A stretch of 64,000 nt of DNA from Bacteroidota bacterium. GTDB lineage: Bacteria > Bacteroidota > Bacteroidia > Chitinophagales > Chitinophagaceae. How positions within the stretch are numbered: position 1 is the first letter of the stretch; each line of letters starts with the position of its first letter. Below are positions 39,514 to 61,543 of the stretch, piece by piece. A program made the position numbers and the translations under genes. Location: the NCBI GenBank assembly GCA_018267545.1, contig JAFDYG010000466.1, positions 186,001-250,000 on the forward strand. The letters are read 5' to 3'. The notes under the pieces were generated by a model, which was given only the letters and a program-made list of their open reading frames with translations, was not told the origin of the DNA and did not search any database.

Positions 39514-40842
39514 TTATGGCACGAAGGGTTTACCCTGTTTATTGAGTTCGATTTGAATGCCTTTTTGGACGTCGGCCAGGTGGATAGCCAGGGGTTTTTG
39601 GGTGTTTCGTTCGAGGGCTTTAAGGGAGGCGTAGTGGACGACGTTGATAATGCTGCCGCCTGCCAGCTCGTATTTTTTTACTTCTTCGGGAATATCGACG
39701 GATGGGTTATAGACGGCTCCGTCCGGAAAAGACTTCTTCCAAATCTCTTTTCGTTCCCTGGCGTCGGGGAAGGGAAAGCGGAGGATGGCATTGAAGCGAC
39801 GGATGAAGGCTTCGTCGATATTGTTTTTCATATTGGTGGCGAGGATGATGAGGCCGTTGTAGTCTTCGATACGCTGGAGCAGGTAGGAGACTTCCTGGTT
39901 GGCGTATTTGTCGTTGGAATCGCGGACGCTGGTGCGTTTGCCAAAGAGGGCGTCGGCTTCGTCGAAGAAGAGGATCCAGCCTTTGTCTTCGGCGCGGGCG
40001 AATAGGAGCTCGAGGTTTTTTTCGGTTTCACCGATGTATTTCGAGACGACCATGGAGAGGTCGATCTTGTAGACGTCTTTTTGCATCTCTTTACCGAGGA
40101 GAGCGGCGGTGAGTGTCTTACCCGTGCCTGGCGGTCCATAAAACAGGGCGCGATAGCCTTTCTTCAGCCGGTCGCTCATACCGAGCTCGTTCATCAGGTG
40201 GTCATTGTACTTCAGCCAATTGGTGATTTCATTGATCTGGGATTGAAGCTCGTCGTTGATGACGAGGGAGTCCCAGGAGCGTTTCTCCCTGATGAGACGG
40301 GCGGGGAAGCTGCTGTTGAAGTGAGGGGCGGAGGGGCGTCCGATGAGGAAGGTATCGATATAATCCTGCGAGATGATGATTCTTCCGCTCATGAGGGGCT
40401 CGCCGTAGGGGACGTCTTCGAGCCAGAGGATTTTCTTCTGGCCGAAGGTGTGTTCGGAGCCGAAAAGCTGCTGGAGGACGAGGCGTTGTTGTTTGTCCTC
40501 GCCGGCAAGTATAAAGAGAGCGGTTTCGCCGGTTGGGAGGAAGCTGCGGGAGTTCTTCCCGCGGACTCCGCCGAGCTTGGGGAAGTTGGTGTTATTGGGC
40601 AGCTTGCTTTCGATGGCTTCGTCGAAGAGGTGGGGGTGAAAGTGGGGGGCGAGGCCGATGAGCAAGAGGGTAGCTTCGAGGCCGTTTAGCTTATTGTCGG
40701 TGATGAACTTTGCGATGGGCAGCTGCCATTTTTTGGGTGGGGGAAGGACGGGATTGGCAATGGGGGTATCGGATGGAAAATATTGATCGAGCCGATAACG
40801 GATTAGCTGATCGAGGTATTGAAATTCGGGAACTGTGGACAT
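39514..40842 (-). CDS. eCIS AAA+ ATPase (Afp15-like)
   Basis: 442 aa from ATG 40842; a TTG at 40851 in frame is also possible. N-terminal ~190 residues contain no known catalytic motif. AAA+ core: Walker A GPPGTGKTLTAALLGKE, Walker B WILFFDEADALFG, sensor 1 IILATNMKNNIDEAFIRRFN with the Arg finger, and a lid domain. This family is a standard component of extracellular contractile injection systems (Afp15/Pvc15 type), thought to take part in assembly or cargo handling. It is the last gene of the run and follows the DUF4157 gene closely. The organism therefore has the ATPase found in almost all eCIS loci and absent from classical phage tails. Confidence 0.93.
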   Translation of the reverse strand: MSTVPEFQYLDQLIRYRLDQYFPSDTPIANPVLPPPKKWQLPIAKFITDNKLNGLEATLLLIGLAPHFHPHLFDEAIESKLPNNTNFPKLGGVRGKNSRSFLPTGETALFILAGEDKQQRLVLQQLFGSEHTFGQKKILWLEDVPYGEPLMSGRIIISQDYIDTFLIGRPSAPHFNSSFPARLIREKRSWDSLVINDELQSQINEITNWLKYNDHLMNELGMSDRLKKGYRALFYGPPGTGKTLTAALLGKEMQKDVYKIDLSMVVSKYIGETEKNLELLFARAEDKGWILFFDEADALFGKRTSVRDSNDKYANQEVSYLLQRIEDYNGLIILATNMKNNIDEAFIRRFNAILRFPFPDARERKEIWKKSFPDGAVYNPSVDIPEEVKKYELAGGSIINVVHYASLKALERNTQKPLAIHLADVQKGIQIELNKQGKPFVP

Positions 40843-40847
40843 GCTGA

Positions 40848-42197
40848 TCAAGAGGGTATTTTATGGTCTATGAGATTGGGTTTTGTTCCTTTTTCTCCGC
40901 AGCAGGCCCAGTGATAGGTGAGCTCGTGTGGTACGGGGCCGGAGACGTCACCGCCGAGGCGTGGGTCTTGTGTGCTGGAGAAGAGACCTCCGGCTGCGGT
41001 CTTCGAATTATAGCGAACCATGTGATCGGGCAGGTCGTTTTCGCCTACGTTGTCATGGTAATGAGCAACGGCTTTCCAGGAGGCAAAGCCCAGGGTATGG
41101 CCGGAGCCGTCGGCGGCTTTTGTTTTATAAGCAAAGGAGTCCAATTCCGGTCTGATATCGGTCGATTTGGGGTCTACGCGCCAGGCCTCGTAGTAGTGCA
41201 GCGGGCTTTTCAATTTCTTTTCGGGGATGGGGCGCATGTTGCAATCGAATGCCTGATATTGGATGGAGACTTCCTGTATGATCCAGCCGCCCTTGTCTCC
41301 GGCTTCATGATCTATGTTCCAGGCAGCGTCCCAGATGAGCTCGCCGCAGCCTTCGTCCATGATGGAGCCGGAGCTGATGGATAGCTTGGGTACGACGTAT
41401 TTGGGGGGCTCTTTGGGTTGATCTTTTGCGGATTTGCTTTTTGTTTTTGGGTGGGCTTGCTTGTCGTGGTCGCATTGTACCTGGTCGCGGTAGGCGCCGC
41501 CGGTTTGCTGGACGACGTGGGTGAGCTCGTGGGCTAGCAGGTGCTGGCCGCTGGTGGAGTCGGGGTTGTACTTTCCGCTATTGAAGTAGATATCTTTTCC
41601 GTGCGTGAAGGCCTGGGCGCCGAGTTCCTTGTTCATGCCGACGGAATCGGCGCCGGTGTGGATGTTGACGTCGTGGAAGCTGGTTCCGAATGCGGACTCC
41701 ATCTGGTAGCGGGTGGATTCGGGCATGGACTGACCTTTTCCGCGGGTGCTGTCTATGAGATTCGAGACGCCTGCGGATGCTTCTTCCTGTTCGCAGTGGG
41801 CGCATTTGGTTTGGAGCTTGGGATTCTCGTGGGTGTCGGATTTTGTTTGGACTTCGGGTTTCTCCTGGATATCACGGTCGTTTCTGATTCGCTGGTCATT
41901 GGTGGAGAAGTTTTCGTCTTCGATGGGAGTGGAGAGGCGCTGGATGGAGCTGATCTCCTGGCGTTGGACGGCGGGGCCGTCTTCCATGTCTTTTTTGGCG
42001 ACGATTTTGTCGGCTACGCTGTCTGCTTCCTTTTCATATTTATCGTTCGGTTTACCGATCATCATGCTGGTTTGGAAGAAGGGTTCTTCCTGTTTGGTTT
42101 GCACCGCTTCGCCATGGCCGAAGAAGGATTCCTGTCCGGGTGTGCTACTTGGGCCATAGGCTGATTTGCCGGTTCGATAGCTGCTGCTTTTGTGCAT
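40848..42197 (-). CDS. DUF4157 (eCIS-core) metallopeptidase-like protein
   Basis: 449 aa from ATG 42197 (earlier in-frame codons to 42350 are unlikely). N-terminal ~45 residues are polar with SFFG at 24-27 and FFQ at 40-42. An acidic DKYEKEADSVADKI segment (52-65) precedes a variable linker; a Cys pair KCAHC lies near 131-135. The DUF4157 domain is about 155-235: YQMESAFGTSFHDVNIHTG, GAQAFTHGKDIYFN and HELTH at 223-227, an intact HExxH zinc-binding motif. The C-terminal ~200 residues (KLSISSGSIMDEGCGELIWD … VPHELTYHWACCGEKG) do not match anything I know and may be the variable effector part. DUF4157 is the best-known marker of eCIS loci and is often attached to toxin domains. Located between the DUF4241 gene and the ATPase. 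Confidence 0.9.
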   Translation of the reverse strand: MHKSSSYRTGKSAYGPSSTPGQESFFGHGEAVQTKQEEPFFQTSMMIGKPNDKYEKEADSVADKIVAKKDMEDGPAVQRQEISSIQRLSTPIEDENFSTNDQRIRNDRDIQEKPEVQTKSDTHENPKLQTKCAHCEQEEASAGVSNLIDSTRGKGQSMPESTRYQMESAFGTSFHDVNIHTGADSVGMNKELGAQAFTHGKDIYFNSGKYNPDSTSGQHLLAHELTHVVQQTGGAYRDQVQCDHDKQAHPKTKSKSAKDQPKEPPKYVVPKLSISSGSIMDEGCGELIWDAAWNIDHEAGDKGGWIIQEVSIQYQAFDCNMRPIPEKKLKSPLHYYEAWRVDPKSTDIRPELDSFAYKTKAADGSGHTLGFASWKAVAHYHDNVGENDLPDHMVRYNSKTAAGGLFSSTQDPRLGGDVSGPVPHELTYHWACCGEKGTKPNLIDHKIPS

Positions 42198-42208
42198 TTG
42201 GAAATCAT

Positions 42209-42799
42209 TTATATGATACTGAAATCGATTGTAATGGTAACGGGTTTGTTGTTTGCTGTGCCCCACCATGCGGTGTACTGGCCGTCGCCGAGGCCGCTGG
42301 CGAACATGGGGATGGTATCCTTTTTTTCCCTGAAGGGTTGGTGGAGGCACCAGTCTCCGGCGCTGCGGGACGTGGGGGTTGCGTTTGCTCTGAACTCTTT
42401 ATTCAATATGTCTTCATAATAATTGCCTTTGGGGTGAGCGGCTTTGTATTCCGTTAGAAGCCGGCAGAATCGCTCCGACGTCGACTGGTCTATAAAACAG
42501 CTGAGGCCGGCGTCTACCATGTGCGTATTTCCGCCCCATTCTGTCAGGGCGGGTTCCCATGCCGTGGCTGGTTTAGTCGAAAACAGCACTCTGGCGAATG
42601 CCACTCTTAGGTTTACCAGGAGCAGCTGTACCGGAAATTGGCCCTTCGGCACTTCGGTTATGAAGGGCGGGCTGGTACAGGTTTGAAAGGGGTCGCAGGC
42701 GATAAGGACGCCAGTTGGCACGGTCAGGTCTCCGACTTCTATAATCGTTGCTCCTTCGGGCGGGTTATCGAATAGTAGTGACAGGTCTTTCATGTTCAA
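42209..42799 (-). CDS. DUF4241-domain protein inside the eCIS operon
   Basis: 196 aa. Family features of DUF4241 (PF14025): GDLTVPTGVLIACDPFQ near residues 23-40, VPKGQFPVQLLLVNLRVAFARVLF, the WEPALTE block, DAGLSCFIDQ near 98-107, and a C-terminal PMFASGLGDGQYTAWWG near 165-181. No signal peptide or transmembrane segment. DUF4241 has no established biochemical role; it occurs sporadically in polymorphic-toxin and immunity contexts. It sits 10 bases downstream of the big cargo candidate and 11 bases upstream of the DUF4157 gene, so it could be an immunity protein, chaperone or second cargo. It lacks the SFFG/FFQ signature of its neighbours. Confidence 0.8.
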   Translation of the reverse strand: MNMKDLSLLFDNPPEGATIIEVGDLTVPTGVLIACDPFQTCTSPPFITEVPKGQFPVQLLLVNLRVAFARVLFSTKPATAWEPALTEWGGNTHMVDAGLSCFIDQSTSERFCRLLTEYKAAHPKGNYYEDILNKEFRANATPTSRSAGDWCLHQPFREKKDTIPMFASGLGDGQYTAWWGTANNKPVTITIDFSII

Positions 42800-42809
42800 A
42801 AATTAGTGA

Positions 42810-45587
42810 TCATAAATTTACGGGCGGCATATAATTTTCCACCTGGGTACCTCTCTTACGGTTTTGCGTTGGCTCTTCCAGCTCATAATTCGCGGGGTCT
42901 TCCATGAATTGTTTCACCTGCGGGGACTGGGCGCCGGTAAAGCGGCCGTGTGCATTCCACCACGTGGCGGCGTCTACGATGTGGCCGAGGTCGGCCTCGG
43001 GTTCGGGGTACCAGCCTACATTCGGTGGTCTGCTATTAAAATATTCATTCGTTTCTCTTTTGAATTTTCCCATAAAGGCCATTCTGTCGATAACTGCTTT
43101 TCTCACTTTGGCCTTAGTCGTTTCATCCAGCTTCCCCATATATTCTTCCCGTTTTGACCTGTCGCTGGCGAGGGTCCATTCTCCTGCGTTGACTTCCGCG
43201 ACGAATTTCGTTATGAGCAGGAATGTCTGGGTCAGGCCGTCATTGCTTTTTCTTACCTTGACGAGATTCACCAAATCGGTTTTCGCTTCAAATCCTTTGA
43301 CGATGTATAGCTTTTGGTCGGTGGTTCGTTTGAACAAGCTCCCGATGCTGACGTCGGTCTTTTTGATCTGGGGAGGGGTGTATACCAGCGGAATCAGGAT
43401 CTGTAAGGTATCGGATAGTTTTTCGAGCAGAGGATTGAGCTTGTCGATGTCTTTATAGTCATATCCTTTGGCGCCGGTGTTTTGGACTTTGGCGACAAGC
43501 TTCGTGGCGTCGGCGACCAGCTTCAGGGCTTTTTCATATGCGATATGATGCACGGAGTTTTTATCCCGAATCTCCGGTTTGTTTTGAAGCTGTGTCATCA
43601 GGTCATTTACGGGGATGGGGGTAGTAGCGACCATGAGCTGGCTGTCTTTCCCTTGTCCGCTGAAGAACAGGGTATGATTCTGGTCGTCTACGCTCTTGAA
43701 TTTAACCTTTTTATTCCACCAATCCAAGGCGGCGGTCTTTCCTTTTTCGACTGCGGCAGCTCCGAGCTGCTTTCCTTTTTCTATGAGGAGGCGGCCGCCG
43801 ATGGTCATGAGGCGGCTGTGGATGCCGGCTCTGATGGTGCCGATCGCGTCGGTGGGGGTTGGCTGGGTTTCGGTTGCTGCTGCTGATCCGGTTGCGGTTC
43901 CGGCCGGGTGGTCTTTAGCGCCGACCATTTCTTTTAGGAAGGCTTCGCCGTTGTTCATGAAGGAGAGGACGCGGGTCTCCATGCTTCCGATGAAGGCTCC
44001 GGCTTTGCCGGCGATGGAATCGACGATCGAGGTGATGCCGTTGATGGGAGCGTGAAGTGGGGTTACGAGCTTTTGCACTGGGCCGGAGTCGGCTATTTTC
44101 TTTATGATATCGTCGGCGAAGCTGACTTTTTCTCTTAGGAGCTCAACGATAGATTTACCCGAGATCGCGGTTACCAGCTTACCCAAGAGTTTGAACAGAC
44201 GGGATGGGGGATGGGTGATGATAAAATTGAGCACCCATTCGACTGCCGAGTCTGCGATTTTTTTGAGTATAACAGCGGGCTGGGTGACGGCCTGGAGGCG
44301 ATCTTTTATGCTTGCCACGACCTCGTCGAGCTTTCCTTTTACGTTTTCGAAGAATCCGGAAGTGATCTCGCGTAGTGCTCCGGTAGCTTTATCGATGGCG
44401 CCGCCTGGGTCCGTGGCTGCCTCGATGGTGTTCATGATGCCCGCGTAGGCCATGCTGAACCCGTTGAACCAGTCTTTTTTTGTAAGGTCGAGCGCGCTGA
44501 GTGTACTATTGACGTGACCGGCCAATTTTCTGTAAGCCGATACGAGGCCGGTGATCACTCTTTTAATAGTGCTGAGAACCTTCATGAATCCGCGTTCTCC
44601 CCGGCCGCCGCCAGTGTCTTTCTCTTCCTTTTCTTCTTCACCTGCGGGGATGGGGAGCCCTTGTATCTCACCGAAGAGTGACTTGACGAGGACGTTGCCC
44701 ATGCCGGCGGGGCTGAAGAGCTTTTGCAGGTCCTCCTTTTTCAGGCTGCGGATGGTATCTATGACGCCAACGATGGTCTTGGCGCTGCTGTATAATTCGG
44801 GGAGAGTATCTACGAGCCATTTGGCCAGGATTGCGAGCTCGCTGGCGCCTCCGGTGAGGCCGGCGGCTGCCAGTTCGGCTCCGGCTGCGGCTACGTCGCC
44901 GACAGTTTCGAGGCCCTGGACGATATGTTCTTTTTTAATTTCGAACTTGACCTCTTCGTGGGCCTTCTCGTCATTGAACTGTTTGGCGAAGTACTTCATC
45001 CACATATTGAACGTAGTGACGTTATCGTCGTCCATGCGGTGCATTATCTGGTCGAAGGCGTTGGTCCATTGCGAGACCAGGGTTCCTATGGTAAAAGTCT
45101 CTCCCTGCAGTGCGATGATGAGATAATCGAAGGGGCTCAGGCGATGTCCGACTATAGGTATTTTGATAGTCCACTGCCAGATGATTGCCATGATTTTGCT
45201 CTGGTCGCCTCCTGTGAGCCAGGAGTTATCTGTGAGGATGTTTTTTATCTTTTTGGCGTCGATTTTGGCCTGGCTGCGGATAGCGATTACTTCGGGCGGG
45301 ATGGTTACGGCTGTGGGGCTTGTTGTGGGGGCTGTTGCGGGTGCGGGGACGGAAGTGGGTGCGGGAGCGGAGGTGGCTGCCAGACCGGGTGTTGGAGTGG
45401 AGGGGGCGTCGGGTTTTGCCTGTATGGTTGGTGTGCGTTGGAAGAAATGGTCTTTGTCTGCGGAATCCTGATCGGTTTCACCGCCGAAGAAGCTGTTCTC
45501 TCCTTTGGTTTGGGCAAAGAAGGGGGTGCCCGTCGTGGATGTCTTGGCGGGAGTGGCGGTGGTCGTCGATGTTTCAGCTACCTTCAC
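42810..45587 (-). CDS. Large putative eCIS cargo protein with HNH-like C-terminus
   Basis: 925 aa, starting at GTG 45587 (no ATG upstream in frame). Residues 1-130 are Thr/Pro/Ala-rich and disordered, with TPFFAQ (21-26), SFFG (32-35) and FFQ (48-50). Residues about 130-560 are long helices with small-residue-rich stretches (VGDVAAAGAELAAAGLTGGA and others), as in carriers of toxins. About 590-640 contains the pre-toxin motif WWNKKVKFK…DQNHTLFFSGQG…LMVATTPIPV, seen in DUF4157-linked toxins. The C-terminal ~60 residues carry GHIVDAATWWN (H869, N878) and NYELEEPTQNRKRG (N900, N909), the pattern of a diverged HNH nuclease. It sits between the tape measure and DUF4241 gene. Secretion and nuclease activity are inference; a structural role is possible. 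Confidence 0.75.
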   Translation of the reverse strand: MKVAETSTTTATPAKTSTTGTPFFAQTKGENSFFGGETDQDSADKDHFFQRTPTIQAKPDAPSTPTPGLAATSAPAPTSVPAPATAPTTSPTAVTIPPEVIAIRSQAKIDAKKIKNILTDNSWLTGGDQSKIMAIIWQWTIKIPIVGHRLSPFDYLIIALQGETFTIGTLVSQWTNAFDQIMHRMDDDNVTTFNMWMKYFAKQFNDEKAHEEVKFEIKKEHIVQGLETVGDVAAAGAELAAAGLTGGASELAILAKWLVDTLPELYSSAKTIVGVIDTIRSLKKEDLQKLFSPAGMGNVLVKSLFGEIQGLPIPAGEEEKEEKDTGGGRGERGFMKVLSTIKRVITGLVSAYRKLAGHVNSTLSALDLTKKDWFNGFSMAYAGIMNTIEAATDPGGAIDKATGALREITSGFFENVKGKLDEVVASIKDRLQAVTQPAVILKKIADSAVEWVLNFIITHPPSRLFKLLGKLVTAISGKSIVELLREKVSFADDIIKKIADSGPVQKLVTPLHAPINGITSIVDSIAGKAGAFIGSMETRVLSFMNNGEAFLKEMVGAKDHPAGTATGSAAATETQPTPTDAIGTIRAGIHSRLMTIGGRLLIEKGKQLGAAAVEKGKTAALDWWNKKVKFKSVDDQNHTLFFSGQGKDSQLMVATTPIPVNDLMTQLQNKPEIRDKNSVHHIAYEKALKLVADATKLVAKVQNTGAKGYDYKDIDKLNPLLEKLSDTLQILIPLVYTPPQIKKTDVSIGSLFKRTTDQKLYIVKGFEAKTDLVNLVKVRKSNDGLTQTFLLITKFVAEVNAGEWTLASDRSKREEYMGKLDETTKAKVRKAVIDRMAFMGKFKRETNEYFNSRPPNVGWYPEPEADLGHIVDAATWWNAHGRFTGAQSPQVKQFMEDPANYELEEPTQNRKRGTQVENYMPPVNL

Positions 45588-45618: not shown

Positions 45619-47247
45619 TTACCAATCCAGGTGGATAGGGGAGGGCAGCCAAGGTAATTTTATGATGCTCATATTCCAGGGGAGCGGATAGGTTCGAATG
45701 AGTATGTCGACTGCGTGTTTCTCCATGATTAGGTGGAGCTTGCCGTTTTTGGGATTGATCTTTCCGGAGCGGGTCAGGAAATTGCCGCGTAATCCTTCAA
45801 CCGTAATATTCTTTACGCCCCAATGGTCGATGAGGCCTTCGAGGAGCTGAGTTGCTTCATTCAGCTCGCTTTCCTGCCAGGATATTTTTTGAGATAAGGG
45901 AAACTCCAGCGGGACTCCGCAGATCAGCTTTGGGATGACGAGGGAGTGCTCCTCGGCTTGTTCGTGGCCGGTGGCGAGGTAGTGAATGAGATGGATGGCT
46001 TTTTGTTGGGTATGGATATCGATGAACTTTCCGTTTGCGACGAGCCTGGTTGTTTTGAACAGGTTGTTGAGGAAGGGGTGGGCCAGGATGATGCCGGCGT
46101 TGCTGGCGAAGAGGCCTTCTTCGGGAAGTTGGTCGGGGTCGAAACGGGCGGGGGTGTCGGTGTTCCCGGATGTTGGTTCGTGGTGGGTTTCGATGGGTGC
46201 GGATTGGGGGTCGGTGTTTTTAGGGCTCTCTTTGGGTATGGGCTGGGGCTCTTGGTTTTGGGGTTTGATGGGTTCGTGGGTGGAAGTGGTTTTATTTATT
46301 ATAGTTGTGTCGACGGGTGTCGATGGTTGTTGTTCGGGTGTTGGGTGTGTGGCTGGGACTGTGGGGGGAGTTAGGGTTAGGGTTGGGGATTGGATTTGGG
46401 TAGATGCATTGTTGGTTAGGATGGCTATTGCGAGGGGGTGTTTGAGCAAGTAATCTTCAAGGTTGGGGTTGGGCGTGGGGTTGGGGGTGGGTTTGGTGTG
46501 GTTGATCCAGTAGTGGGTAAGGAGGGTATGGGTCAGCTGTAAGGGGGTGGTGTTTTGGCGATTCTGGGTGCTGGCGGCGGCCAGGGCTAGAATGCCTTGC
46601 CAGATTTGTGCGGGTGAGGGTATAGATAGGGGTTCTTGCTGAGAAATGTGGACGAGCAGCTGGTGCAGCTCGATTAAATATCGGGTTAGCCCGTTTTGAG
46701 AGCGGGCGGTGAGTATTTCGATGAGCCTGGTGAGAAAGACTGCGTCGTGCTGAAGTGTTATTCTTATTAGGATATGGGTCTGTGTTAGGAGTTTTTGTTT
46801 GAGCTGGGTGATGGCTTCATAATTGACGGCTAGTGTTTCCAGGACTTTGTTTTCCCATTCTTTGGTGATTCGTAGTAAGTTCCAGGGCAGGTAGCCTTTC
46901 TCCATATAGAAAAGCCACTGAGAATGGGCGTTGTGGCGGGCGCTGCGGCGGATGGCGGCGGACTGGGTATTGGAGGAATGGGTTATGTCGATTGTTTTTA
47001 GTTTGTCGATAAGGCGGTCTTTTAGCTCCTGGTCGTTGAAGTCACGGCTGCGGAAGGCGCCGAGGTCGATGACGAGGTGGTCGATATAGAGGGTTTCGTC
47101 TTCGGTGGAGTTGTCGTCGAACCATTTTTCGAGTATGGGTAATAGGGTATGGTAATAGTCGTCGTTCAGCCTGTTTTGCAGGTCGAAGGGCGGCTGTTTG
47201 CCGTCGAGGTTTAGTTCGAGAAGCTGGCGGCGGATGGTGTGGTTCAT
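45619..47247 (-). CDS. Contractile-injection-system tape-measure protein (Afp14-like)
   Basis: 542 aa from ATG 47247, which overlaps the stop of the giant upstream gene in an ATGA. The N-terminal ~100 residues are typical of the CIS_TMP family: MNHTIRRQLLELNLDGKQP, LPILEKWFDDNSTEDETLYIDHLVIDLGA, and LIDKLKTIDI; the C-terminal part has GVPLEFPLSQKISWQESELNEATQLLEGLIDHWG and PLPWNMSIIKLPWLPSPIHLDW. In the middle (about residues 235-400) is a Thr/Pro/Gln low-complexity stretch. Members set the length of the inner tube in eCIS, by analogy with Afp14. The family sits exactly where expected, behind the baseplate genes. Confidence 0.88.
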   Translation of the reverse strand: MNHTIRRQLLELNLDGKQPPFDLQNRLNDDYYHTLLPILEKWFDDNSTEDETLYIDHLVIDLGAFRSRDFNDQELKDRLIDKLKTIDITHSSNTQSAAIRRSARHNAHSQWLFYMEKGYLPWNLLRITKEWENKVLETLAVNYEAITQLKQKLLTQTHILIRITLQHDAVFLTRLIEILTARSQNGLTRYLIELHQLLVHISQQEPLSIPSPAQIWQGILALAAASTQNRQNTTPLQLTHTLLTHYWINHTKPTPNPTPNPNLEDYLLKHPLAIAILTNNASTQIQSPTLTLTPPTVPATHPTPEQQPSTPVDTTIINKTTSTHEPIKPQNQEPQPIPKESPKNTDPQSAPIETHHEPTSGNTDTPARFDPDQLPEEGLFASNAGIILAHPFLNNLFKTTRLVANGKFIDIHTQQKAIHLIHYLATGHEQAEEHSLVIPKLICGVPLEFPLSQKISWQESELNEATQLLEGLIDHWGVKNITVEGLRGNFLTRSGKINPKNGKLHLIMEKHAVDILIRTYPLPWNMSIIKLPWLPSPIHLDW

Positions 47248-50200
47248 GGGGTAGGTTGTGGGGGTTCGGGTTCGGGTGCTGGTGGTGCGGTGGTTTGGGT
47301 TGCGGGTTCGATCGGTGCGGGTTTGGCTGACCAGCAATAGAGCTGGCTGACCTGGCTGGAGAAGACGGGGGGCTGTTTGGCCCGGGATTTCTCGAGGCGG
47401 TCTGCGCAGGGGTCGACGGCTGTGGGTGCGGGTGGGCAGGGGTGACAGGGCTGGCAGTCGGCCATGGTTGCGAAATTCGTTTTGAAAAGGAATTGGGTAA
47501 ACTCACAGCTCGAGAAATTGGCGCCTGTTTTTGTGCGGCTGGTCATTCCTTTGAGCCAGGCTTTGTATTGTGTTTCGAAGCGGTTGCAGTCCTGGGGGGT
47601 GAGCCATAGGACGCGGAGCAGGACGTGGGCAGGTGCTTCGCGGTAGAGTGCGTTTTCGAGGATGAGTCGATTGTCCTGACGGCTGAATTTGTCCGGCCAC
47701 GCGGGTAGGGCTATGGTCGCGATAAAGGACCAGGGGTCGTTGCCGGGGATGAAGGAAATATTTTTTACTTCCTGGCAGGGATCGTCGTTGTCGACTTCCC
47801 AGAGGAAGCTACAGTCGGATTGTTTGCTGCAATAAGTATCGGTCAGGCACGTGCAGTCTTCGGGGTGTTCGTTGCGGGGGCGGAGCAGGATATGTTCGAC
47901 GAGATGCAGGCCTTCGGTGTTGGCGGCTTTTCGGGTGCGTTGGATGGCGTCGATCACGGACTCGCGTGCGATATAGGACTGGGGGTGGATGGCCACTGTG
48001 TCCTTGGGGTCGGCGAGGGTGATGGTGAAGCAGCGGCAGTCGCTGCAGAAGGTCGAGAGGTAGTAGTCGCTGTGAGCGAGGAGGGAGGTGCCCTCTTCGA
48101 GGGCTTTTTGGGCTTCGGCTCCGGTGTTGAAAGAGCAGGTGCTGGTCCAGGAGGGGGCCGGGAAGTCGGAAGTTGTGGCGCTGGGGCTTGGGAAGTTTAG
48201 CTCGATGGAGTAGCGGTTGTCGGTGGTCTTGATGAAGGGATATGAGTCGGCGAAAAGCAGGAGTTGTTTTTTAAACTCTTCTTGATCGAGCGAGGGTTCG
48301 GGTTGGATATCGGTGATGTTGTCGTCGTAGATCTTGTCGATCAACTCGATGGTCAGGAGAATGTCTTCTTTGTTTGGGTCGGTGATAGGGGTTTTGGCAA
48401 AGGGCGTTTCCTGGTCGTTGGTGAGTATAAGGAAGTCATTTTCGCGGTGGCTGGTGAAGGCTTTGGGGTTCCACTGGGCGAACTGACTGATCAATTGTTG
48501 TTTTGCTTCGTCTCGTTTCGAGGGGGTGGGGTAGGTGGTGGTATGTTTTAAAATGGACTGACCGCAATTGACCTGGAAGGTGTTGGCGCAGTCGTTGAGC
48601 TGGTAGGCGAGGACGGAGTTCTCTTCGCGGAGGGCGCAGATGAATTTTTCGACGCCGGTGGGGCCCCAGGCTGCGTCTTCGGTGGAGAAGCGGGTAGCGC
48701 TTTCGGCGAGGACCTCGTGGATATAGATGCGATAAGTTGTGGCGTCGCCGCAGTCGCAAGTGTCGGTGAAGAGGTTGCCGGGGAAGCGGAGGAGACGGAT
48801 GAAGACGCCGAAGTCGAGCTGGGCATCGGAGATGGTTTTGAAATAATTAGTGCTTTGCCACTCGAATGATGTGTTGCTTGCGGTGGGTGTTGCTTCGGTG
48901 GGTGTGGGTGCGGTGGGGTCGGTGATGATGAGGCCGCAGTAATAAACGTAGTTCTTTGGTGCGCCGCAGGGTGTTGGGGGGATAGTTTTATCCTTGGGGA
49001 CGCAGAAGCGTTTGCAGAATTCGTCCGAATTGAATTCGATCCTCTTTAGCGGATAGGAGCCTGTGATGGTTACCATCTTTTTTATCACGTCGGCGTCGGC
49101 GCCGCCGAAGGCCACTTTCGTTTCTTTGGGTATAAAGACGATGGGACCGGGGGGAGGATCGTTGCTAATGATCTCGGTGAGGCTGATGAGAGAGTTATAG
49201 CTGCTCTCTTTGGCGGCGTCTTCCAGGAGAGAGAGGTAGCTATTCATGAAGGCTGTTTTTGCCTCGTCTTCGGAGGGGTAGCCTTTGACGCTCTCGAGGA
49301 GGATCATGGGTTTGCCGGTGGAGTAATAGCAGTTATGGCATTTTATGACGAAGTGGTAGCCGGGCTGGCCTGTTTTGGGGTCTTTGCGGTGTTTGGTGAT
49401 GCAGCCGTCGAGGCAGATCTCTAAGAATTTTACGCCTTGTCTTAGCAGTGTGGCGAGCTTTTCTTTGTCCTGGTCTGCGGTGGATTGGTCGGGGTAGTCG
49501 CGGGTACATTGGGAGACGCGTTGGTCGCGGTCGACGAGCTGCCAGGAGAATTGGCCTTGCTGGCTTTTCTCGTCCATTTTTATGCTGATGAAGTCGTTGG
49601 GGTTGGTTTGGGCGATGGTTTTTTGGAATTGCAAATTGTTGTTGAGCGATTCGGGGGTTGCGGGGATGGTTAGCGTGGATGTTGGGATGGCGGGGTCGTC
49701 TGCGAGGAGTGTCCAGCCGGATGGGTCTTGTTGGAGACGGAGGCTGGCGACGTGTGACCAGACGTTGTTTAGTGCGTCGAGTGCGGCGGCCGTGGTTTCG
49801 TATTCTGTGGTGCTGTCGAAGGAATAGCGGTTGCCGTCTTCGTAGCCGAGGTAATAATGAAACTTATATCGATAGGGATCGCTGTCGATCTTGAGGGTGT
49901 AGAGCTGCTGGCGGAATTTGTCCAGCATGGTTTTGGTGAAAGCGGTGGCTTCGTCTTTGGATTTACCGGTGGCAAAGCTGGCTTGTTTACGGCCTCCGCT
50001 GATGATCCAGACGACGCCGTCGTCTTCGACCCAGTAGTTGTTGGGGTCGGTGGCGGATAGGAGTACTGTGATGGCGTGGTTACGTGCGTCTTCGGCGGTG
50101 TCGAATTCGTCCGCGGCTTGTAGTTTAAAGGAGTTTGTGACGGGTAGGATGATGTAGGTATGTTTCTCGGGCTTGTCGATGATCGTGTTGTTGATGTCGA

Positions 50201-60581: not shown

Positions 60582-61043
60582 TTATCCTTTATCGGTAAAA
60601 AGAAGACGATTATAATTCAATTCCAGTGTCTCCAGGAGCACTTCACCGCGCTCGGCGTTTAGCTCGCCGATCTTCCAGCTCCGGGGCCATACGTTGTTGA
60701 TGGTCCATTGGAGGAGGGGTTTGTGCTGTTCGTCCAGCAAATAAATGTGGACGGTGGAGAGGGGCTGGTATTTTTCTTCATCGAATGTCCGTTTCAGCCA
60801 GGTCGTCAGGCCGGAGGCGCCGGGGCCTAGCAGCCCTCGTTTGAGCACTAGCGGGCCGTACTTTCTCCGGGTGGGGATGACGTGTTCGAAACGGTTTTCG
60901 CCTCCTTCCCGGATGGTTTCGGTGTCGATCGTCGAATCCAGTCCTGTTACGGACTGGAAGCGGATATCGACGGCCTTTGCCGTATCCAGGGTGAAATTCA
61001 CGCGGAAGTGGAAATTGACATTCTGATAAAAACTATCGGCCAT
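60582..61043 (-). CDS. eCIS inner-tube protein (gp19/Afp1/5-like), copy 1
   Basis: 153 aa, phage T4 gp19-like tail tube family. Features: FYQNVNFHFRVNFTL, VRFQSVTGLDSTIDTETIREGGENRFEHVIPTRRKYGPLVLKRGLL-type tract (seen as FQSVTGLDSTIDTETI and RKYGPLVLKRGLLG), WTINNVWPRSWKIGELNAERGEVLLETLELNY. It forms the hollow tube through which cargo moves. The second copy lies 35 bases upstream, and two paralogues in tandem are the norm in eCIS (one for the main tube, one for the baseplate adaptor). Confidence 0.93.
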   Translation of the reverse strand: MADSFYQNVNFHFRVNFTLDTAKAVDIRFQSVTGLDSTIDTETIREGGENRFEHVIPTRRKYGPLVLKRGLLGPGASGLTTWLKRTFDEEKYQPLSTVHIYLLDEQHKPLLQWTINNVWPRSWKIGELNAERGEVLLETLELNYNRLLFTDKG

Positions 61044-61078: not shown

Positions 61079-61543
61079 TTAAGCGTTGGCTTCAACGATC
61101 TTGAGCCCTTCGTGGACGAGGTCCATCGACTCTATGGCGACTTCGTTGGCGTCGGCTTTCAGGTTCGTGGACTGAACCTTGGAAGGCCAGGCTTTCGACA
61201 GCGCCCAGGTGATGATGGGTTTGTGCTCTTCGTCCAGGAGCTTGATCGTGATATCCCTTCTGAATTTTTCTGCGCCTTCCTGGAACATCATCGTCTTCTT
61301 CCAAAGCTCGAAATATTTGAAATCGCCGAGGAAAGTGCCGCGTTTGAGAGTGATGTTTGCGTATTTGGTGAGGCCGGGTTGCTTCGTCTTATGATAGACC
61401 GGGCTATTGCCTTCGCGGTATTCGATGACTTCTGTTTCGAAATCGAGGCCGCTGACCTCCGTAAAACCAAAGCGATCTTCGCCCCATTCGACTTGGAAGT
61501 GGAATTTCGGGAGGGGATAATTCTTTTTAGGATCGTCTGCCAT
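61079..61543 (-). CDS. eCIS inner-tube protein (gp19/Afp1-like), copy 2
   Basis: 154 aa, gp19-like tube family: YPLPKFHFQVEWGEDRFGFTEVSGLDFETEVIEYREGNSPVYHKTKQPGLTKYANITLKRGTFLGD (seen in pieces), then WALSKAWPSKVQSTNLKADANEVAIESMDLVHEGLKI. The Lys-rich KQPGLTKY segment is characteristic of the main tube protein, so this is probably the principal tube subunit and copy 1 the adaptor. Positioned downstream of the two Cys-rich coiled-coil genes. Confidence 0.93.
   Translation of the reverse strand: MADDPKKNYPLPKFHFQVEWGEDRFGFTEVSGLDFETEVIEYREGNSPVYHKTKQPGLTKYANITLKRGTFLGDFKYFELWKKTMMFQEGAEKFRRDITIKLLDEEHKPIITWALSKAWPSKVQSTNLKADANEVAIESMDLVHEGLKIVEANA

Follow-up and report, generated by a model that had tools for sequence, protein, structure and literature searches.

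The phenylalanine string that recurs near the N-termini of two proteins of a Chitinophagaceae eCIS cluster, SFFG followed by FFQ, is best explained as the local form of a conserved leader of Bacteroidota eCIS cargo. This FF leader would be a hydrophilic, low-complexity, flexible N-terminus in which phenylalanine occurs mainly in FF pairs, with [VI]QxK typically coming next. It is spread over the sample, is present on the two cargo proteins of an AlgoCIS-like locus, and its state is near all-or-none per locus. Judging from sequence, we consider it rather probable that it acts as the loading (cargo-recognition) leader of AlgoCIS-like particles, multivalent in the family of the window (the whole stretch of 64,000 nucleotides that was analysed), and we infer that it is needed for loading.

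The eCIS cluster occupies the minus strand of the window from about 39.5 to 63.6 kb and encodes tube, hub/spike, baseplate and tape-measure proteins, a 925-aa protein, a DUF4241 protein, a DUF4157/eCIS_core protein and an AAA ATPase (Table 1). Tube, baseplate, tape-measure, AAA and cargo genes stand together in this one cluster and AlgoCIS is a close match, and on these two grounds the cluster can be classed as a predicted AlgoCIS-like eCIS. For the tube protein the best PDB match is the cyanobacterial 7b5h (E = 7.8e-58), slightly ahead of AlgoCIS 7adz. Two T4-gp19-type tube proteins are encoded side by side (61079-61543 and 60582-61043), and the same arrangement is present in the AlgoCIS-like locus (L260, 8234-9109). 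As the DUF4241 gene directly follows that of the 925-aa protein, an immunity or accessory role of its product is possible. The 449-aa protein is the one eCIS_core match at E <= 0.001 in the genome of the window (7.3 Mb, 553 contigs); its start was taken as the ATG at 42197, a longer GTG frame from 42350 overlapping the preceding gene.

Table 1. Features of the window's eCIS cluster that bear on the FF leader
Feature	Position	Strand	Evidence or remark
eCIS inner-tube protein	61079..61543	-	matches AlgoCIS tube 7adz, E = 3e-55
eCIS tape-measure protein	45619..47337	-	CIS_TMP, E = 7.9e-98
925-aa DUF4157-less cargo candidate	42810..45587	-	slot directly after the tape-measure gene
Leader of 925-aa protein, residues 1-60	45408..45587	-	leader-profile matches, E = 5.2e-5 and E = 0.0016
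FF pair 1 of 925-aa protein, residues 23-24	45516..45521	-	
FF pair 2 of 925-aa protein, residues 33-34, inside SFFG	45486..45491	-	
FF pair 3 of 925-aa protein, residues 48-49, inside FFQ	45441..45446	-	
IQAK of 925-aa protein, residues 55-58	45414..45425	-	corresponds to the [VI]QxK that follows the last FF in relatives
GH-E-like C-terminal stretch of 925-aa protein (HNH/EndoVII nuclease family), tentative	42852..42998	-	
DUF4241 protein	42209..42799	-	PF14025, E = 2.8e-34; between the 925-aa gene and the DUF4157 gene
449-aa DUF4157 (eCIS_core) protein	40848..42197	-	PF13699, E = 6e-31
FF pair of 449-aa protein, residues 25-26, inside SFFG	42120..42125	-	
FF pair of 449-aa protein, residues 40-41, inside FFQ	42075..42080	-	
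eCIS_core (DUF4157) domain of 449-aa protein, residues 158-234	41496..41726	-	with HELTH
AAA ATPase, candidate leader receptor	39514..40851	-	PF00004

The first-pass annotation of this DNA had placed SFFG at residues 32-35 and FFQ at 48-50 of the 925-aa protein, and the same strings at 24-27 and 40-42 of the DUF4157 protein. These residues are correct, as is the gap of 12 residues between the strings in both proteins; the SFFG codons of the 925-aa gene begin at 45494, and the FFQ codons of the DUF4157 gene end at 42072. Missed at that stage were the FF at residues 23-24 and the IQAK at residues 55-58 of the 925-aa protein, the leader of which reads PFFAQTKGENSFFGGETDQDSADKDHFFQRTPTIQAKP; the protein has an N-terminal FF leader and then QxK, as AlgoCIS-like (Cgo type) cargo has. 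In the 449-aa protein both FF pairs are present, followed by a degenerate QxKL (FFQTSMMIGKP). By eye, the protein's FFQ falls at the FFQ position of the Cgo2-like protein of genome G733 (see below), SFFG being an extra upstream pair.

The string itself turned out not to be the conserved unit. The acidic G-E that had been described after both SFFG motifs is offset by one residue (FFGGE versus FFGHGE) and is not kept in 16 aligned relatives, and a search for the exact pattern SFFG-x12-FFQ in 1,075 ORFs (window and 80 other stretches) returned only the two window proteins. FF-to-FF spacings range from 6 to 44, 9 being the commonest value in a set of 86 leaders. SFFG-x12-FFQ with G-E was therefore rejected as a conserved tag, because the exact string is confined to the two window genes and the spacings vary. 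A recent duplication of leader DNA was rejected as well, since alignment in the SFFG-FFQ register gives 42 identical bases out of 87, of which 19 lie within the two FF-codon blocks. The rest of the N-termini had been called unrelated, which is too strong a statement: the alignment of the 925-aa leader with the leader of locus L035 beats all of 500 shuffles.

Phenylalanine-rich disordered segments might also match by coincidence. By plain local alignment the two window leaders match modestly: a score as high was reached by 12 of 5,000 shuffles, which speaks for coincidence, and in a test with 500 shuffles the best shuffle (54) exceeded the real score (47). When these two 60-residue leaders were both shuffled 200,000 times, at least two FF appeared in both in 142 cases, one of which also had a shared spacing, figures that apply to a pattern chosen after the fact. 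The pairwise case by itself is post hoc and modest; it is the family data that carry the argument. A chance origin of the window pair is unlikely, and chance as the general explanation is scarcely credible in view of the enrichment of FF over controls and the outcome of a whole-genome profile search, both given below.

To survey the family, eCIS_core was sought in 195 of its genomes, of which 68 have a match. Forty stretches, none longer than 19.9 kb, were drawn around strong eCIS_core matches in 38 genomes, namely 38 of the 39 other genomes with a match at E <= 2e-19 (G120 was left out); some matches fall outside these stretches. Twenty further stretches around eCIS_core genes came from Echinicola, Cyclobacterium, Lunatimonas, Flavobacterium, Ulvibacter, Algibacter, Mariniphaga, Maribellus and others; the named genomes searched amount to 25 of 80 loci, and the 20 stretches derive from the 21 with a match (G199 was left out). 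The 330 control ORFs comprise 302 from 20 control stretches in genomes of the same family and 28 window ORFs outside the cluster. ORFs are the longest non-overlapping frames of at least 100 aa and not gene calls, with uncertain starts, and some of the 112 DUF4157 ORFs are short or cut off at an edge. An FF was counted if it fell among the first 110 residues in hydrophilic surroundings, with disorder-promoting residues making up at least 72% of its flanks.

By this rule, an FF leader is present in 79 of the 112 DUF4157 ORFs (45/76 in the family, 34/36 in other Bacteroidota) versus 10 of the 330 control ORFs, and at least two FF pairs occur in 51/112 versus 0/330. The remaining 33 DUF4157 ORFs have no leader by the FF rule, and FF-free eCIS loci exist within the same family. 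A first, looser rule matched 41 of 537 ORFs, among which were two ordinary proteins, and when applied to 537 reversed proteins it matched 7; with looser thresholds, 28-58 of the 302 control ORFs match for one FF and 1-5 for two. Loci L074 and L234 become FF-positive at looser settings and L224 is FF-negative in one setting. The proposal of a shared N-terminal cargo tag holds and even widens, from two proteins to these 79 DUF4157 ORFs, the two proteins that would correspond to AlgoCIS lumen cargo and several DUF4157-less proteins, with a near all-or-none distribution per locus. Outside Bacteroidota, 9 plasmid-borne DUF4157 proteins (putative eCIS cargo) have no leader FF, the leader of L266 being unjudgeable as its frame begins just before DxYExEAD; this plasmid sample comprised 10 of 87 records, one of them from Bacteroidota and likewise without leader FF. 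A cyanobacterium has the QxKL and DxYExEAD segments without FF.

The composition of 86 leaders, some of them from DUF4157-less proteins, shows how strongly phenylalanine is paired: 331 phenylalanines lie in runs of at least two and 34 are single, and 165 FF are observed versus 27.2 expected when each leader is shuffled. FF is preceded by S or P in 86 of 163 cases and followed by G, Q or S in 96 of 163. Three pairs are found in much of the large cargo of the window's family, with the consensus FFxK-FFG-FF-[VI]QAKL (16 aligned), and two pairs in many small cargo proteins near the AAA gene. Cargo of other Bacteroidota has mostly one FF before QAKL, with a second or third pair in 11 of 36.

A leader profile was built from 16 leaders of other genomes, the window being excluded. 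Among 537 ORFs it recovered the 925-aa leader at E = 5.2e-5, and it came near noise for the window's DUF4157 leader (E = 0.59) and for two DUF4157-less leaders of L047 (E = 0.059 and 0.1). Over the 195 whole genomes of the family it gave 23 matches in 18 genomes, 21 of them at eCIS loci, a count that is no independent test because many of these matches are training sequences; the scarcity of good matches elsewhere is one. The two off-locus matches (G179, E = 0.0017; G083, E = 0.009) are short frames with an internal stop in genomes without an eCIS_core match. The sole match in the 7.3-Mb genome of the window is the 925-aa leader (E = 0.0016), the two-FF DUF4157 leader not being found. By its profile scores, the 925-aa leader is assigned to the family-wide FF leader.

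The FF leader is separable from DUF4157. At least two FF were found in 8 of 431 and in 2 of 202 DUF4157-less ORFs of the eCIS stretches. Four of these ten cases are not clean and were set aside: the 608-aa protein of L234 is a false positive, the 127-aa protein of L058 a decayed DUF4157 fragment, the 260-aa protein of L067 keeps part of the core and the 519-aa protein of L217 keeps the DxFExEAD helix. The six clean carriers are the 925-aa protein of the window, one protein each in L037, L038 and L043, and two in L047. Those of L037, L038 and L043 are small proteins encoded beside the AAA gene, with two or three FF each; those of L047 are an M14/AspA-like protein (E = 0.005, below the cut-off) and an OmpA-domain protein (E = 1.3e-9). 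Pairwise comparison of the L047 leaders gave scores of 42 and 26 versus best values of 52 and 43 in 500 shuffles, without likeness beyond FF. The small protein of L037 is 55% identical over 44 residues to the window's DUF4157 protein, after its leader, and the leader of L038 is 49% identical over 57 residues to the DUF4157 protein of L036, so that both small proteins look like domain losses in which the FF leader was kept. Two further loci have a common leader on (nearly) unrelated bodies, like polymorphic toxins. In L224 (11154-12057) a Tox-MPTase2-like protein (one FF; E = 0.0048, below the cut-off) and the neighbouring ORF have a common leader and no detectable body similarity; in L067 (12061-14552) two neighbours have 61 residues of leader in common and their bodies match over 23 residues only (E = 0.003).

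These carriers bear directly on the reading that the resemblance reflects common descent only; on this view the 925-aa protein would be a DUF4157 protein whose domain has been lost, FF-QxK would form the N-terminal border of the eCIS_core fold, and the motif would be a remnant or structural anchor. In DUF4157 cargo the last or only FF often stands shortly before QxKL-GxPxDxYExEAD, and the 925-aa body (residues ~600-676) is weakly similar to the C-terminal parts of large DUF4157 cargo proteins, both as this reading expects. FF is kept, however, in all six clean carriers, where helix and domain are gone, and the domain is kept where FF is gone, both in a clade of nine FF-free loci described below and in other phyla. 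Moreover, what the L043 protein has in common with the DUF4157-bearing counterpart from L046 is for the most part low-complexity repeat. We judge descent alone an unlikely explanation.

The FF pairs could also be cleavage or docking sites of DUF4157, taken as a metallopeptidase-like domain with HExxH that processes cargo in cis or in trans. DUF4157 does carry HExxH, some gluzincins cleave before bulky hydrophobic residues, and in the window the DUF4157 protein is encoded two genes on from the 925-aa protein. Against this, FF-free loci retain the same HExxH domain, the three DUF4157-less small proteins retain FF, and growth inhibition by Cgo1 is reportedly independent of its metalloprotease motifs, according to the text available from Danov et al. 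2024 (PMC11297309). Processing strikes us as improbable.

At full length the 925-aa protein had no match in Pfam or NCBIfam at E up to 0.1, eCIS_core included, and none in the PDB at E up to 1. A search for close relatives of its body in 393 other family genomes gave partial matches, all of them weak, in only 5. When the last 200 residues were searched alone, a sub-threshold resemblance to GH-E appeared (Pfam E = 0.014, 16.4 bits versus a cut-off of 25), in a stretch containing GHIVDAATWWN...FMEDPANYELE...NRKRG. The protein is probably a cargo with its DUF4157 partner encoded two genes downstream.

The leader is also tied to the locus. Concordance was assessed in 38 loci with at least two cargo proteins, 88 proteins in all (the 925-aa protein and those DUF4157 ORFs that reach 240 aa, other DUF4157-less ORFs being left out), and within loci 6 pairs of cargo proteins were discordant in FF presence versus 24.7 after shuffling, 0 of 10,000 shuffles being as low; as eCIS_core matches guided the choice of loci, and the loci share descent, this concordance may partly be inheritance. 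On a tree of 53 of the 54 AAA proteins (L041 was left out by the length limit), FF state changes 4 times versus 12.5 times after shuffling, with 0 of 500 shuffles as low, a result that means clustering and not binding, since related loci are not independent. Looser thresholds give 6-7 discordant pairs and 4-5 changes. The tree contains a clade of nine FF-free family eCIS loci (L042, L044, L048, L050, L059, L062, L063, L068 and L071) in which all sampled cargo, large and small, is without FF. At 9/9 of these loci the gene upstream of AAA encodes a non-DUF4157 protein of 454-536 aa that is not cargo.

A ParA/MinD-type ATPase gene, recognized by its P-loop pattern, is present in 7 of 41 family eCIS loci (L036, L037, L038, L041, L047, L055 and L060), in 0 of 20 other Bacteroidota loci and in 0 of 20 control stretches; Pfam confirmed three of three tested, and the window has none by pattern. 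It adjoins the gene of a small FF protein in 6 of the 7 loci and could belong to a particle-positioning system.

The leader might instead act outside loading, by keeping a toxin soluble or inactive in the producer or by assisting exit or translocation in the target cell. Truncation of PVC signal peptides alters payload stability as well as loading, as stated in the accessible part of Evans and Waterfield (PMC11495950), which fits such a role. On the other side, FF presence varies together with the locus and with the AAA tree, as would be expected of a leader with a partner in the producing cell, although this is compatible with a role outside loading as well. We rate this possibility below common descent and somewhat above processing.

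If the leader does act in loading, the FF pairs may be short linear hydrophobic docking motifs that are bound by a common part of the assembly or loading machinery, and via the leader cargo with DUF4157 and cargo without it, of which the 925-aa protein is an example, would enter the same tube. The most plausible binder would be the AAA ATPase of the cluster, the likeliest reader because of the analogy with Pvc15, the gene adjacency and the AAA tree; its role as leader receptor, drawn by analogy, is the most speculative element of the proposal. A sequence-readable loading code can be sketched, tentatively and with less confidence than the loading role itself, in which FF pairs dock to the particle's AAA ATPase or to a tape/tube complex, the number of pairs tunes avidity, FF-free clades use another code, and cargo and machine are matched. 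The FF-pair tail on the cargo of syringe-like particles may thus be an address label for loading. A simple motif of this kind would make cargo of AlgoCIS-like systems, DUF4157-less cargo included, findable by sequence, and would make the recognition target of the machine testable by point mutation.

Cargo of known location connects the leader to AlgoCIS. In genome G733 the tube is identical to AlgoCIS Alg1 over 138 residues, and its cluster, on a 4.79-Mb contig, encodes a 197-aa protein, the size given for Alg16A, together with two adjacent DUF4157 proteins, one of 498 aa with two HExxH motifs, as described for Cgo1, and one of 1,228 aa. We infer that G733 is Algoriphagus machipongonensis and that its two DUF4157 proteins would be the counterparts of Cgo1 and Cgo2. 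The N-terminal sequences of the two are ...KDFFGVQAKLETGKPGDKYEQEAD and ...DDFFQAKLNVGQPGDKYELEAD, with DFFGVQAKL or DFFQAKL. According to the available text of Xu et al. 2022 (PMC8894135), the tube lumen of AlgoCIS is filled by Cgo1 and Cgo2, which have a similar disordered N-terminal domain; that text describes no FF motif for it. The likeness to the window extends to the tube (E = 3e-55), to the AAA protein (47% identical over 432 residues in the AlgoCIS-like locus), to the position of the cargo genes between tape measure and AAA in both clusters, and to an N-terminus with FF, which in both G733 proteins stands before QAKL. The systems differ in that the AlgoCIS-type cargo proteins have one FF pair each before QAKL while the window proteins have three (925 aa) and two (449 aa), and in that both AlgoCIS cargo proteins carry DUF4157, which in the window is present in the 449-aa protein and absent from the 925-aa protein.

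N-terminal cargo signals as such are known. The signal peptides of PVC/Afp effectors are disordered hydrophilic N-terminal stretches (50-70 residues in PVC), as the FF leader may also be, and the PVC signal peptide directs loading together with the AAA ATPase Pvc15, as far as the accessible parts of PMC11297309 and PMC11495950 report, where the underlying work (Jiang 2022, Kreitz 2023, Steiner-Rebrova 2023) is cited. PVC/Afp belong to lineage Ia, whereas the FF motif is a feature of the window's leaders; furthermore, Pvc15 has tandem AAA domains according to the same partial source (PMC11495950), whereas Pfam recognizes a single AAA stretch in the AAA protein of the window. The portions consulted call disordered signal peptides Afp-homologue-specific (Evans and Waterfield, PMC11495950) and report that no conserved signal sequence was detected for eCIS (Danov et al. 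2024, PMC11297309). No description of an FF leader of eCIS cargo was found among the matches listed in the literature searched, which mostly excludes subscription papers and bioRxiv, nor, within that same literature, a sequence-conserved signal in the AlgoCIS-like lineage. In the accessible text on eCIS-associated toxins (Geller 2021, PMC8213781; Danov 2024, PMC11297309), DUF4157 lies N-terminally in the toxin candidate or its gene lies near that of the candidate, as here; the marker there is the DUF4157 domain, without mention of an FF motif in that text, whereas the FF leader described here can occur without DUF4157.
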